A stretch of DNA of 64,000 nt, from the NCBI RefSeq assembly GCF_021233415.1, contig NZ_CP089466.1, positions 124,001 through 188,000 on the forward strand. The letters run 5' to 3'. The position numbers and the translations under genes are program-made. Numbering within the stretch: position 1 is the first letter of the stretch; each line of letters starts with the position of its first letter. The DNA is from Halobacterium litoreum (lineage in GTDB: Archaea > Halobacteriota > Halobacteria > Halobacteriales > Halobacteriaceae). Shown piece after piece: positions 2,459 to 45,731 of this stretch. A model generated the notes under the pieces. It saw nothing but the letters and a program-made list of their open reading frames with translations. It was not told where the DNA came from and did not search any database.

Positions 2459-3259
2459 ATGACAGAGACGACCCACCCCGCGACCGACGCCCAGTCACCG
2501 ACCGACCCCGCGTTCGACGCCATCGCCGACAGCGACACGCTCGCCACCGCCCTGGACGCGCTCGCCGTGCTCGTCGACGAGTGCGTCGTGCGCGTCGAAC
2601 CCGACGGCCTCGCCGTCGACGCGATGGACCCCGCCACCGTCGGCATGGTCTCGCTCTCGCTCGGCGCCGACGCCTTCGACGCCTACGACGCCCCCGACGC
2701 CGGCCTCCGCCTCGGCATCCCCCTCGACCGCCTCCGGGACGTGGTCGGTATCGCCGACGCCGGCCAACCGGTCCGCCTCGCGTTCGACGCCGAAAGCCGG
2801 ATGCTCCACGTGCGCGTCGGCGAACTCGCGTACACGCTCGCCTGCATCGACCCCGACGCCGTCCGCTCCCCGCCGGACCGCATCGACCTCGCGGAACAGT
2901 ACACCGCCTCGGCCACCCTCGACGGCGCCGGGTTCGCGCGCGCCGTCGACGCCGCCGACATGGTCGCCGACCACCTCGCGCTCGGCACCGACGCCGACGC
3001 CCTCTACGTCCGCGCCGACGGCGACACCGACTCGGTCGAAGTCGACTTCCCCGGCGAGGACTGCGCCGCCATCGACCCCGGCCCCGCCCACTCGCTGTTC
3101 TCCCTCCAGTACCTCGCGTCCGTCGCCGACGCGCTCCCGTCCGACCGCGACGTCGACCTCCGATTCGGCGAGGAAGCGCCCATCGAGGCCGGTTTCGACA
3201 TCGCGGAGGGCGACGGCCACGTCACGTTCGTCGTCTCCCCGAGAATGACGGTGAATTAG
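2459..3259 (+). CDS. pcn: DNA polymerase sliding clamp (PCNA), divergent
   Basis: Sliding clamp that rings DNA and tethers polymerase, ligase, Fen1 and other PIP-box proteins. The 266-residue product (ATG at 2459) aligns by eye with haloarchaeal PCNA through the VLVDEC, DPATVGMVSLSL, YTLACIDPD, AADMVADHLALG, HSLFSLQYL and GHVTFVVSPR motifs. It carries about 16 extra N-terminal residues (TETTHPATDAQSPTDP). The usual N-terminal FKAIVSA strand appears as AFDAIADS, and the end is SPRMTVN rather than the APRIQS-type terminus typical of haloarchaeal PCNA. It could be the genome's only clamp or a diverged second paralogue; the window cannot tell. The longer frame from 2399 lies inside the leader hairpin, so the 2459 start is preferred. 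Confidence 0.85.
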   Translation: MTETTHPATDAQSPTDPAFDAIADSDTLATALDALAVLVDECVVRVEPDGLAVDAMDPATVGMVSLSLGADAFDAYDAPDAGLRLGIPLDRLRDVVGIADAGQPVRLAFDAESRMLHVRVGELAYTLACIDPDAVRSPPDRIDLAEQYTASATLDGAGFARAVDAADMVADHLALGTDADALYVRADGDTDSVEVDFPGEDCAAIDPGPAHSLFSLQYLASVADALPSDRDVDLRFGEEAPIEAGFDIAEGDGHVTFVVSPRMTVN

Positions 3260-3299
3260 CGATTCGCGTGACCGTCTCGTAGCCGTCGCTGTTCGGCGC

Positions 3300-3343
3300 G
3301 AAAAACAAAAATCGAATCTGCGAACCGCGGCCTGCGGCCGCGG
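3300..3343 (-). terminator. Hairpin plus T-run terminator after etfA
   Basis: Read on the minus strand, a perfect 8-bp GC stem (CCGCGGCC, 3325-3332, pairing with GGCCGCGG, 3336-3343, loop of 3) is followed 13 nt later by a T-rich run (TTTTTGTTTTT, the complement of 3301-3311). It lies 12 nt past the etfA stop. Archaeal termination relies mainly on T-runs, so the run is the stronger part of the signal. On the plus strand the same DNA follows the PCNA stop. Confidence 0.5.
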
Positions 3344-3354
3344 ACGTTACCGGT

Positions 3355-4323
3355 TTAGACGCTCGGGGGTTCGCCGCCGAACTCCTCGATGAGCGCGGGC
3401 ACCACGTCGAACAGGTCGCCGACGACGCCGTAGTCCGCGATGTCGAAGATGGGCGCGTTCGGGTCCGTGTTCACCGCGATGATGGTGTCCGCGCCCTTCA
3501 TCCCGGCGACGTGCTGGACCGCGCCCGAGATACCGATGGCGAGGTAGACGTCCGGCGTCACCTGTTTGCCGGACTGGCCGACCTGCCGGTTCTTCGGGAG
3601 CCAGCCGTTGTCGACGATGGGTCGCGACGAGGAGAGCGTCGCGCCCGTCGCCTCGACGAGCGCCTCGACGAGTTCGAGGTTCTCCTCTTCCTCGATGCCG
3701 CGACCGATGGACACGAGGAAGTTCGCCTCGCTGATGTCGACGTCGCCGCCGCCGACCTCCTCGAAGCCCTTCACGGTGGAGCCGACTGCGTCCTCGTCGA
3801 CGTCGAAGTCGAACGCCGAGACGTCGGCGTCGCCGACGCCTTCGGCGGCCGGCCACTCGCCGCTGCGCACGGACGCCACGAACGGGCCCTCGGTGACCTC
3901 GACGGTCGTCTCGACCTTCGACCCGTACATCTCGCGGGTGACTTCGAGCGTGCCGTCGTAGTCCAGACCGACCGCGTCAGAAGCGTACGAGCGCCCGAGT
4001 CGCGTCGCCACGGCGGGCGCGTAGTCGAGGCCGTTCACGCTGTTCGGGACGAGCAGGAACTCCGCGCCGAGGTCCTCGGTGAGCGCGGTGACGGCCTGCG
4101 CGTACACGTCGTGGTTGAACTCCTCGCCGTACTCGACGGTGTGAATCTGGTCGACGCCCTCGCGGTTCAGGTCGTCCGCGAACTCCTCGACGTTCCCGGA
4201 GATGACGGCCGCGTGCAGGTCGGTGCCGACGGCGTCCGCGAGTTCGCGGCCCGCGGTCAGCAACTCGAAGGACACGTCCCGCAGGTCGCCGCGCCGGTGG
4301 TCGGCGATCGTGAGAACCGTCAT
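3355..4323 (-). CDS. etfA: Electron transfer flavoprotein, alpha subunit
   Basis: FAD-binding subunit of the heterodimeric electron carrier between acyl-CoA and related dehydrogenases and the quinone pool. The 322-residue length is normal. The C-terminal FAD domain is clear: GQSGKQVTPDVYLAIGISGA (near residues 240-260), then QHVAGMKGADTIIAVNTDP and a FDIADYGVVGDL tail. The N-terminal part is the nucleotide-binding-like ETF fold. The gene follows etfB with an ATGA 4-nt overlap, so the two are translationally coupled. No fixC/fixX partner lies beside them. It converges on the PCNA-like gene. Confidence 0.95.
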   Translation of the reverse strand: MTVLTIADHRRGDLRDVSFELLTAGRELADAVGTDLHAAVISGNVEEFADDLNREGVDQIHTVEYGEEFNHDVYAQAVTALTEDLGAEFLLVPNSVNGLDYAPAVATRLGRSYASDAVGLDYDGTLEVTREMYGSKVETTVEVTEGPFVASVRSGEWPAAEGVGDADVSAFDFDVDEDAVGSTVKGFEEVGGGDVDISEANFLVSIGRGIEEEENLELVEALVEATGATLSSSRPIVDNGWLPKNRQVGQSGKQVTPDVYLAIGISGAVQHVAGMKGADTIIAVNTDPNAPIFDIADYGVVGDLFDVVPALIEEFGGEPPSV

Positions 4324-24170: not shown

Positions 24171-24327
24171 CGAGCATCCGCGATCGCCACCGGCGCTCGC
24201 GGTTCACAGCGCGCGAAGCGCGCTGGCGGCGAGGACCCCCAACGGGGGTCTGACGCCGCTTTTTCCCCAAGTTTTTGCCGAACGAGAGGCGCGCTCCGCG
24301 CGCCCCTCGTGCAGCGCAAAAAGTGGG
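24171..24327 (-). repeat. Composite structured repeat element, copy 1 (between pirin and prf1)
   Basis: Read from the prf1 stop (minus strand) the order is: ACCCACTTTTTGCGCTGC box; hairpin 3 (ACGAG-a-GGCGCGC with GCGCGCC-c-CTCGT, 24282-24310); a box TCGGCAAAAACTTGGGGAAA continuing AAGCGGC; hairpin 2 (GACCCCC/GGGGGTC, 24234-24250); hairpin 1 (CAGCGCGC/GCGCGCTG, 24207-24225); and an end box GCGGATGCTCG. The same order with different hairpin sequences occurs at 41440-41609. The AAAAA and TTTTT boxes can themselves pair around hairpin 3. The element begins 2 nt after the prf1 stop. Confidence 0.75.
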
Positions 24328-24329
24328 TT

Positions 24330-25580
24330 CTAGACGCCCGTGCCGTACCGCAGGAGACCCGCAAAGCCGCCGAACGCCGTCAGCAGTTGTTCGCCTTTCT
24401 CGAAGTCGGTGGAGATGAAGTGGGTGTCGGTGCCGCGCTGGTCGGCGATGTCCATGAGGTGGTCGATGGCGTCCTCGCGTTCGACGACTTCGGCGTCCTC
24501 GCCGCAGTCGCTACACTCGTGGTCGGGGGTGTCGCTGCGCTGGGAGATGAGTTCGCGTTCTTCGTGCTCGTTGGGGCACTCGTAGGTGACGACGTCCTTC
24601 CGGAGGTCCTCGGAGATGAGCAGCGTTTCGACGGAGCCCATGACGAGGTTCTTGCGCGTCGGCTCGAACCCGTAGGTGGCGAGGTCGCCGCCGTTGAGTT
24701 CCTTGAAGAACTCCTCCATGTCCGCCTTGTCGTCCATCAGGTCGGCTTCCGCGAGCGTGTCCTGTGCGCGGTCGACGAGTTCTTTCAGGCCGGATTCGTC
24801 GGTGTAGGAGACGTCGAACTTCCCGAGGACTTTGTCTTGGAGTTCGTGGTGGAGGTAGTCGCCGTCGAGGAACTCGTCTTTGGTCGGTGAGGGGCCGCCG
24901 ACGAGGATGCCGTCGAGTTCGTGGCGTTTGGCGACGAAGAGGTCGTCTGCCATCTCCGCGATTTCCTGGTAGAAGTTGTCGATGGCTTCGAGGCGGAGGC
25001 GGGCGAATCGCTGTGCGGACTGACCACCTTTCCGCTGTTTGCCGGGGACGAGGCTGGACGCGGACTTGACGGCCTCGATGCGTTTGCCCTTCAGCCAGCC
25101 GACGTTGGCTTCGCGGCGGTCGAGGACGATGAGGCCATACAAGCCCTTGTCCCCGAGCATCTCTTCGAGGGGTTCCGTGAGGAACGCGGAGTCGCAGTGG
25201 TAGCGGAACGACTCGATGGGCTGGGGCGGCGATTCGAGGACTTCGGTGACCATGTCGGTGCGCCCGCCGCCGGAGTCGACCGCGCCGGAGAAGATGACCA
25301 TCCCGTTGTCCGGCGGGAAGGTGTCGTAGTACCGGAGGCGGTCCTTGATGGACGTGAGGGCGTCCTGGACGTTCGTCCGCGTCTGCTTGGACTTGATGTT
25401 CGAGGCTTCGGAGTGTTCCTGGGTGACGTGGGCGACGACGTCCGAGACCTGCTTGTCCGGGGGGATGTAGATGGTGACGAGTTGCGTGCCACTCCCCTCG
25501 TAGTCTTTGAGTTCCTCGATGACTTTCTGGAACTCGTACTTGCGTCGGTCCTCGGACGGTACCTCGTCCTGTTCGCTCAT
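24330..25580 (-). CDS. prf1: Peptide chain release factor aRF-1
   Basis: Archaeal class I release factor that recognises all three stop codons and triggers peptidyl-tRNA hydrolysis. The 416-residue product from the ATG at 25580 has the stop-decoding NIKS motif at 61-64, the catalytic GGQ at 185-187, and a C-terminal domain with the CPNEHE and CSDCGED zinc-like cysteines. The length matches archaeal aRF1. A longer frame to 25802 lacks halophilic character upstream. Its stop codon lies 2 nt from the structured repeat element. It is divergent from the minD-like gene. Confidence 0.96.
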   Translation of the reverse strand: MSEQDEVPSEDRRKYEFQKVIEELKDYEGSGTQLVTIYIPPDKQVSDVVAHVTQEHSEASNIKSKQTRTNVQDALTSIKDRLRYYDTFPPDNGMVIFSGAVDSGGGRTDMVTEVLESPPQPIESFRYHCDSAFLTEPLEEMLGDKGLYGLIVLDRREANVGWLKGKRIEAVKSASSLVPGKQRKGGQSAQRFARLRLEAIDNFYQEIAEMADDLFVAKRHELDGILVGGPSPTKDEFLDGDYLHHELQDKVLGKFDVSYTDESGLKELVDRAQDTLAEADLMDDKADMEEFFKELNGGDLATYGFEPTRKNLVMGSVETLLISEDLRKDVVTYECPNEHEERELISQRSDTPDHECSDCGEDAEVVEREDAIDHLMDIADQRGTDTHFISTDFEKGEQLLTAFGGFAGLLRYGTGV

Positions 25581-40822: not shown

Positions 40823-40893
40823 GCGACTTCCCTTAAACGACCCGCTCCCGGGAATCCGCGGCTTATTTGCGTCGCCCGCGTGCACCGACGCCC

Positions 40894-41439
40894 ATGAACC
40901 TCGCAGCCACCGTCGCCGTCGCGTTCTGGGCGATGCTCCCCGCGTACGTCCCGAACAACGCCGCGGTGCTCGCCGGCGGCGGCCGCCCCATCGACGGCGG
41001 CCGCACGCTCGGCGGCCGACGCGTCCTCGGCGACGGCAAGACGTGGCGCGGCACGCTCGTCGGCACGCTCGCCGGCGTCGCGCTCGCCGTCGCCCTCAAC
41101 GCCGTCGAACCCGCCGCAAGCGACGCACTCGGCGTCGCGCTCCCCGAGTTCCCGCCCGCCGCCATGGTCGCGCTCGCGTTCGGCGCGATGCTCGGCGACA
41201 TCCTCGCGTCCTTCCTGAAGCGACGGACGGGCCGCGAACGCGGCGCCGCCTTCCCCCTCGTCGACCAACTCGACTTCGTCGTCGTCTCCCTCACGCTCGC
41301 CGCGCTCGCCGCCCCCGCGTGGTTCGGCGACACCTTCACTCTCGACGTCCTCCTCGCCGTCCTCGTCCTCACCCCCGTCCTCCACGTCGCCACCAACGTG
41401 GCTGCGTACCTCCTCGGCCTGAAAAACGAGCCATACTAG
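40894..41439 (+). CDS. carS: CDP-archaeol synthase (CarS)
   Basis: Activates unsaturated archaetidic acid with CTP in membrane lipid synthesis. The 181-residue membrane protein from the ATG at 40894 has about five helices. [16 protein letters not shown] (near residues 48-63), [20 protein letters not shown] and [12 protein letters not shown] are the CarS/CDP-alcohol cytidylyltransferase-like motifs. It is divergent from proline dehydrogenase. Its TAG stop is followed immediately by the second copy of the structured repeat. Confidence 0.92.
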
Positions 41440-41609
41440 CCCACTTTTTGCGCTGCATCGGGGGCGCACAGCGCCCCCGATTCGGCAAAAACTTGGGGAA
41501 AAAGCGGCATCGGACCCCCTATCGGGGGTCCTCGCCGCCTGCGCTCGCTACGCTCGCGCAGTGAACTGCTTCGCTCGGGCTTTTCAAGCCGCTCGCTTGC
41601 GGATGCTCG
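41440..41609 (+). repeat. Composite structured repeat element, copy 2 (immediately after carS stop)
   Basis: In order from the carS stop: CCCACTTTTTGCGCTGC; perfect 11-bp hairpin 3 (ATCGGGGGCGC/GCGCCCCCGAT, 41457-41481); box TCGGCAAAAACTTGGGGAAA continuing AAGCGGC; hairpin 2 (GGACCCCC/GGGGGTCC, 41512-41531); hairpin 1 (CTGCGC/GCGCAG, 41539-41561); end box GCGGATGCTCG (41599-41609). The boxes match copy 1 (24171-24327, opposite strand) nearly base for base while hairpin arms differ but still pair. No coding frame is credible in it. Confidence 0.75.
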
Positions 41610-45246: not shown

Positions 45247-45492
45247 GTGACTCTCGAACTGTACAAACTCCCCGGCTGTCCGTACTGCGCGAAAGTCGAG
45301 ACGAAACTCGACGAACTCGGCGTCGACTACGTCGAACACGAGGTGCCGAGTTCGCACAGCCAGCGAGACGAAGTGGAGGCAGTCAGCGGTCAGACCGGCG
45401 TTCCCGTCATCGTCGACGAGGAACACGGCGTCGACGGAATGGCCGAGAGCGACGACATCGTGGCGTACCTGGAAGAGACGTACGGCGGGTAG
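45247..45492 (+). CDS. Glutaredoxin-like protein
   Basis: Thioredoxin-fold redox protein of 81 residues from a GTG at 45247. The active site CPYC is at residues 11-14 in LYKLPGCPYCAKVETKL; the cis-proline segment GQTGVPVIVDEEHGVDGM and the C-terminal SDDIVAYLEETYGG complete the fold. Haloarchaea use gamma-glutamylcysteine rather than glutathione, so the reducing partner may differ. Its last 13 codons are part of a 104-bp tandem repeat that continues downstream. Confidence 0.9.
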   Translation: MTLELYKLPGCPYCAKVETKLDELGVDYVEHEVPSSHSQRDEVEAVSGQTGVPVIVDEEHGVDGMAESDDIVAYLEETYGG

Positions 45493-45731
45493 GGTTTTGG
45501 TCCAGGTTTTGCCGGTCGGCGCGCGGTGTGCGCCGGCCGGGAAAAGGTGGGCGACCTGACATCGTGGCGTACCTGGAAGAGACGTACGGCGGGTAGGGTT
45601 TTGGTCCAGGTTTTGCCGGTCGGCGCGCGGTGTGCGCCGGCCGGGAAAAGGTGGGCGACCTGACATCGTGGCGTACCTGGAAGAGACGTACGGCGGGTAG
45701 GGTTTTGGTCCAGGTTTTGCCGGTCGGCGCG
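45454..45731. repeat. 104-bp tandem repeat (2.7 copies) duplicating the glutaredoxin 3' end
   Basis: Units start at 45454, 45558 and 45662 (period exactly 104 bp); the third breaks off at 45731. Each unit begins GACATCGTGGCGTACC, encodes the last residues DIVAYLEETYGG and stop in the first unit, then carries a TTTT-flanked 11-bp hairpin (CCGGTCGGCGC/GCGCCGGCCGG) that could act as terminator, followed by AAAAGGTGGGCGACCT. The period is not a multiple of three and later copies are not in an open frame. The units are identical by eye, so the duplication is recent. This explains most of the 336-bp gap 45493-45828. Confidence 0.9.

Follow-up and report, generated by a model that had tools for sequence, protein, structure and literature searches.

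A palindromic repeat family anchored at gene 3' ends in Halobacteriales as a candidate bidirectional transcription terminator

How archaeal transcripts end, and how convergent genes are separated in dense genomes, is partly understood. In Haloferax, T stretches have been described as an intergenic termination motif and hairpins have been reported upstream of some 3' ends, and U-tracts end haloarchaeal transcripts (PMC7237163). The archaeal termination factor aCPSF1/FttA needs at least two U4 tracts to bind efficiently, and in Methanococcus the two-U4 arrangement is the one best bound (PMC8716108). Dispersed palindromes are also on record, as the extragenic REP/BIME sequences of bacteria, which often lie right behind stop codons and form head-to-head pairs and subfamilies with alternative complementary stems (PMC3733652, PMC12306157), and as the transposase-free, palindromic PATEs and SMRs of the haloarchaeon Haloquadratum, which include core-deleted forms (PMC3119063). 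A further arrangement is found in Neisseria and Pasteurellaceae, where a dispersed repeat, the uptake signal, serves in termination at gene ends as an inverted pair (PMC1852404). The element described here has likenesses to all of these systems, and differs from each.

The window, that is, the whole stretch of DNA that was analysed, comprises 64,000 nucleotides (C1:124001-188000) of the 2.71-Mb, two-contig genome of Halobacterium litoreum. A sequence-only reading had pointed to two copies of a structured repeat on opposite strands, with shared boxes and hairpins, and all of these were found in place. The cores score 99 and 114 bits (copies 1 and 2) with a covariance model built from 11 own-genome copies (R1), ruling out a chance match, and 98 and 105 bits with a second model built from 106 copies (R2). 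When the copies are aligned, the boxes AGCATCCGC, TTCAC, GGCGGCGAGGACCCCC, GCCGCTTTTTCCCCAAGTTTTTGCCGAA and TGCAGCGCAAAAAGTGGG are common to both. The hairpins (hp) and host genes are arranged as follows.

24173-24327, plus strand: copy 1, full element, with AGCAT box, hp0, TTCA box, hp1, hp2, double T-tract, and hp3 within an outer stem
24178-24202, plus strand: hp0 of copy 1, CCGCGA...TCGCGG between the AGCAT and TTCA boxes (RNAfold and sequence)
24207-24225, plus strand: hp1 of copy 1, CAGCGCGC GAA GCGCGCTG
24226-24259, plus strand: hp2 of copy 1, GCGGCG A GGACCCCC ... GGGGGTC TGA CGCCGC, with TTTTT directly after
24260-24276, plus strand: double T-tract of copy 1, TTTTT CCCCAAG TTTTT, with a 12-nt period
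24272-24322, plus strand: outer stem of copy 1 around hp3, TTTTTGC (24272-24278) with GCAAAAA (24316-24322)
24330-24332, minus strand: aRF1 stop codon TAG, 2 nt past the GTGGG end of copy 1
24333-25580, minus strand: host gene of copy 1, peptide chain release factor aRF1 (TIGR03676)
41440-41607, minus strand: copy 2, full element
41540-41560, minus strand: hp1 of copy 2
41504-41538, minus strand: hp2 of copy 2
41485-41503, minus strand: double T-tract of copy 2
41452-41484, minus strand: hp3 of copy 2
41440-41451, minus strand: A-tract end of copy 2
40867-41439, plus strand: host gene of copy 2, CDP-archaeol synthase CarS (NF003114)
41437-41439, plus strand: CarS stop codon TAG, touching the end of copy 2

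The sequence-only reading needs amendment in three respects, apart from a third site described below: the TTTTTG and CAAAAA boxes pair mutually, forming the outer stem around hp3; a fourth hairpin, hp0, adjoins the GCATCC box; and both window copies abut a stop codon. Along the element strand the order is AGCAT - hp0 - TTCAC - hp1 - hp2 - TTTTT-CCSCAAG-TTTTTGC - CGA - hp3 - GCAGC - GCAAAAA-GTGSG, followed by the stop codon of the opposite-strand gene, and pairing of the outer stem extends outward past a G.G mismatch, itself conserved (157/176), to CSC/GSG. The 12-nt period of the double T-tract (TTTT-N8-TTTT) is present in 157 of the 161 copies that have both tracts. Two further box classes exist, GGCCGAGCTTTTGC...GCAAAAGGTC and AGCGTAGCTTTTGC...GCAAAAGGTA. 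Tandem GA/GA mismatches were seen in many hp0, hp1 and alternative hp2 hairpins (for instance at window positions 41540-41560), a type of palindrome (GC-GA-GC...GC-GA-GC) that recurs in these genomes.

That the two copies belong to a dispersed family had been proposed from the sequence, and the R1 and R2 scans bear this out on a larger scale: the covariance-model search that had been called for returned tens of copies, with covariation in the hairpins. With R1, approximately 23 distinct copies are found in the own genome (antisense echoes of the same places left out), approximately 1% of genes carry an element, and 11 other genomes of the genus have 6-35 matches each. Overall, the element is present in 12 of 13 Halobacterium genomes, G006 alone giving no R1 match. 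The string GCAAAAAGTG occurs 23 times in the own genome, 22 of them inside model-detected elements. Occurrence in other haloarchaea had also been anticipated, and R2 matches were obtained in 157 of the 243 Halobacteriales genomes sampled, representing 51 of 77 genera, where per-genome counts in the large scans are lower bounds (16-17 candidates scored per genome) and E-values are rough (short calibration); the named scan included the Halobacterium congeners H. bonnevillei, sp. CBA1126 and sp. KA-4. In a phylum scan of 247 genomes, 26 had matches, every one in Halobacteriales, and the approximately 200 genomes outside the order gave none, which doubles as a specificity control, with the qualification that their G+C may differ. 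Nothing in Rfam scored above the gathering threshold except tRNA and SRP RNA, and a known RNA family is rejected on this ground. Just as the sequence-only reading knew of no description, none turned up in Rfam or among the open-access papers that were searched, the subscription literature being outside that scope, and the family is apparently undescribed so far.

The strongest clue to the element, missed by the earlier reading, is its anchoring at gene 3' ends. An opposite-strand stop codon lies 3-10 nt past the A-run, approximately 0-7 nt past GTG, in 124 of 150 classified genus-level copies (a small number of them from named records outside the genus), where genes other than named proteins were called with a codon-score script trained on the window. 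The same anchoring is seen in 15 of the 20 distant copies that come from other genera. All three stop codons are used, with 80 TAA, 62 TAG and 17 TGA among the 159 copies that have one at the anchor. The host families are mostly core genes, such as those for aRF1, CarS, SurE, methionine adenosyltransferase and Top6A, and 29 of 45 recur in two or more genomes; from the sequences, we take DnaJ, thermosome and others to be further hosts.

The anchor is not specific to translation. In the own genome, a core lies behind the SRP RNA gene (an Rfam match), and is recognisable there in at least seven Halobacterium genomes, while another element adjoins a 3' fragment of tRNA-Leu (L087, C1:331641-331923); two more distant copies presumably end at tRNA and SRP RNA 3' ends, as we read their sequences. 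As a general rule, a purely translation-coupled element is rejected, given the cores behind SRP RNA and tRNA. At L087 an intact tRNA-Leu lies approximately 120 nt beyond the fragment, and the two together resemble an attachment site duplicated by an element that integrated there. With respect to gene orientation, 84 of 144 copies lie between convergent genes versus 24 of 55 gene ends in the window, a weak enrichment (p 0.08); with 84 convergent and 60 tandem copies, weakly above the window baseline, an exclusive spacer of convergent genes is rejected. Head-to-head pairs of elements are found at the nusA/rpsL junction of several Halobacterium genomes (L104, L186, L244, L254, L235), one element lying behind the nusA stop codon and the other before the rpsL start, ahead of the likely promoter.

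The history of the family is best seen at aRF1, where the element is recognisable in nine Halobacterium genomes, in G012 as a reduced form resembling an internal-deletion remnant, and is missing from the locus in G003, G005 and G006 and from 25 loci of other genera. The simplest reading is gain within the genus, by which the T-tract end would have been placed directly behind the native aRF1 stop codon. That the element supplies the stop codon is not favoured, as element-less aRF1 orthologs align to the same last residue. The neighbours on the far side of the aRF1 element vary among genomes. Downstream of carS in G003 (L158) is a partial element, with hp0, hp1 and the TTCAC and GCATCC boxes retained and the T-tract/hp3 core lost.

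The element probably spreads by mobility or copying. One alternative is a REP- or PATE-like miniature mobile element that inserts or survives behind stop codons, with any effect on termination as a by-product. Such an element would account for dispersed homologous copies with a fixed order of boxes, and for the gain inside Halobacterium together with the element-less loci and the G012 remnant, and there is precedent in bacterial REPs, often found near stop codons (PMC12306157), and in haloarchaeal PATEs, with near-terminal palindromes and core deletions (PMC3119063). However, no Y1 transposase (PF01797) was found in the own genome, which also leads us to reject a RAYT/IS200 system, and only one of eight Y1 loci from other genomes has a significant element nearby. 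Moreover, copies are kept at orthologous genes across species and, among the matches listed, are absent from plasmid contigs, those of G002, G004 and G008 all being on the largest replicon. Presence and absence at aRF1 were seen, the pre-insertion-like sites have no common target, and a DNA transposase is not expected to read three types of stop codon. We consider this alternative unlikely. A BLAST search of plasmid and phage collections gave no match, the element being too divergent for that search.

As to the hairpins, the claim that pairing is kept despite sequence change holds: among 105 distinct genus copies, two-sided changes are seen in 27 of 31 pairs versus 8-14 in slid controls, and 95.7% of cells are paired versus 47-57% in controls, in alignments fitted to the model and thus biased toward the structure. 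Copies from other genera behave alike. The outer stem reaches beyond the model and covaries; of 99 copies in the CCSCAAGT class, 58 have G-C and 38 have C-G at the S base and the base that follows GTG, and the covariation includes bases beside the stop codon (Fisher p 3e-24, copies not independent). What the data do not support is covariation as proof of selection on RNA structure. In hp3, G.U is as rare as A.C, with 1498 Watson-Crick pairs, 6 G.U and 3 A.C of about 1513, versus 11 G.U and 0 A.C in 360 pairs of tRNA stems from the same genome; the share of wobble pairs is 0.4% in the element versus 3.1% in the tRNAs (Fisher p 5e-5 for G.U). As an indicator of the RNA strand, the balance of G.U and A.C leans to neither side in hp2 and hp3, and in hp1 A.C outnumbers G.U by 17 to 5, but in loosely defined stems.

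The hairpins are thus without the wobble signature of RNA selection, which argues for either DNA-level selection or joint rewriting of the arms. Arm-to-arm copying in quasi-palindromes by template switching is a known type of mutation (PMC3820800), and either this or DNA-level palindromes fit better than slow compensatory change in RNA. Since the arms may be rewritten together, the argument from covariation to selection is weaker than it appears; even so, that copies are retained at orthologous sites speaks for a function. Within-genome concerted evolution of hp3 is rejected, as exact sharing is rare everywhere, being seen in 3 of 1195 pairs from the same genome and in 1 of 169 pairs of orthologs.

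These data bear on two further alternatives. A structured RNA at mRNA 3' ends, acting in stability, ribosome stalling or processing, would be in keeping with the stable predicted folds, with the two-sided changes, and with the analogy of E. coli REPs less than 15 nt from stop codons (PMC12306157), but is improbable given the pair counts in hp3, the SRP RNA and tRNA hosts, which ribosome-linked roles do not cover, and a U-tract ahead of hp3 that would often exclude hp3 from the RNA. The near-perfect Watson-Crick palindromes, the 12-bp phased A/T tracts, the outer-stem covariation up to the stop codon, and the G.G mismatch and internal loop, which give the folded strand polarity, would all suit a DNA structure or protein-binding site (a cruciform, a single-stranded hairpin, a nucleoid or recombinase site) without a major part in termination. 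Alone, such a site leaves the anchoring at stop codons and RNA 3' ends unexplained, as well as the invariant T4 runs on both strands, and we regard it as highly improbable.

The T-tracts, their spacing and the position at gene ends hardly change, and the hairpins vary freely yet stay paired. Because of this constancy, and of the published work on U-tract termination and aCPSF1, we favour, with moderate confidence, the reading of the element as a bidirectional transcription terminator or gene-boundary element, a proposal drawn from comparison of sequences. A tract of T4 or longer lies immediately behind the host gene (CACTTTTTGC on the host strand, where 3' ends would be expected); within 60 nt after the stop codon, such a tract is found for 6 of 54 window genes, two of these being the elements. 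Two U4 tracts are present on the element strand alone, the host strand having one. Outside model-defined elements the N8 spacing is still the commonest, with 19 sites versus at most 6 at any other spacing. Between convergent genes at 3259-3355 of the window, a double T-tract (ATTCGATTTTTGTTTTTCGCG, minus strand) occurs without a palindromic element, and is perhaps an ordinary terminator.

In the terminator reading, the transcript of the host gene would meet a single U4-5 tract right after the stop codon or RNA 3' end, whereas a transcript from the opposite side would, in most full copies, meet hp2 and then two U4-5 tracts exactly 12 nt apart. With hp3 between the converging stop zones, neither transcript need include it, and hp3 may act in DNA, by pausing the polymerase or binding a protein, or may serve as a backup. 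We infer that termination occurs at the element, that FttA may participate, and that hp3 would work as DNA.

A third site in the window, missed by the earlier reading, consists of a minimal core at 45495-45549, repeated at 45599-45653 and partly at 45703-45731.

45247-45492, plus strand: glutaredoxin-like gene upstream of the minimal core, with weak family hits that fall short of the curated cut-offs
45495-45549, plus strand: minimal core, TTTT-GGTCCAGG-TTTT-hp3-AAAA-GGTG (R2 26.2 bits, E 4e-4)
45599-45653, plus strand: second, identical minimal core, inside the 104-nt tandem repeat
45454-45731, plus strand: 104-nt tandem repeat, 2.7 copies with 100% matches, of the gene's last codons and the core

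Here, the core begins 2 nt after the stop codon of the gene and on the same strand, such that the double T-tract lies in sense behind the gene, as expected for a terminator. The third repeat unit is incomplete (45703-45731), and the repeat suggests that a gene end and its putative terminator were recently duplicated in tandem.

Several points count against the terminator reading. In copies with hp2, the element strand carries a G+C-rich hairpin with a T-tract directly behind it, but on the host strand the T-tract comes first and the hairpin second, the reverse of the order in bacterial intrinsic terminators. A plain terminator needs no approximately 160 nt, four hairpins, AGCAT and TTCAC boxes or conserved G.G mismatch. 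Finally, only approximately 1% of genes have an element, and the convergent enrichment is weak. A more far-reaching version, which we put forward tentatively and think unlikely, is a haloarchaea-wide boundary device, in which a DNA-perfect palindrome outside both transcripts, between opposed U-tracts, would stop polymerases from both sides via template structure or a bound factor, termination being set by DNA shape and U-tract rather than by an RNA hairpin.

Compared with the systems described above, the element shares with archaeal U-tract terminators the T4-5 tracts at gene 3' ends and the two U4 tracts on one strand (PMC8716108, PMC7237163), and differs in its fixed 12-nt double tract, the palindrome between opposed T-tracts, the boxes, the mismatch, and its organisation as a dispersed family. 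Unlike REP/BIME sequences, it is approximately 160 nt long with four hairpins and nearly no G.T pairs, has approximately 20-35 detected copies, and is order-wide, often at orthologous genes within a genus, with no RAYT. Nor does it have the REP tag (GTAG/CGTC on a palindrome of 20-40 bp); the consensus box is N1-A-G-N2-TTTT, and GTAG is confined to the AGCGTAGC subclass. By the tag and RAYT tests the element is no REP, although its lifestyle is REP-like. The insertions of PATEs, which derive from IS605-type transposons, are strain-specific (PMC3119063), whereas the element is stop-anchored, vertically retained, and present in a genome without Y1. In contrast to uptake-signal terminators, it is without a known uptake signal, and its hairpin arms vary while the flanks are conserved.

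Most genes of this high-G+C window lack a T-tract downstream of the stop codon. An order-wide gene-end element offers dozens of natural test cases per genome, ortholog pairs with and without it, and a covariance model for annotation. It would also give REP/BIME elements an archaeal counterpart, one that persists at orthologous genes although no Y1 transposase is recognisable.
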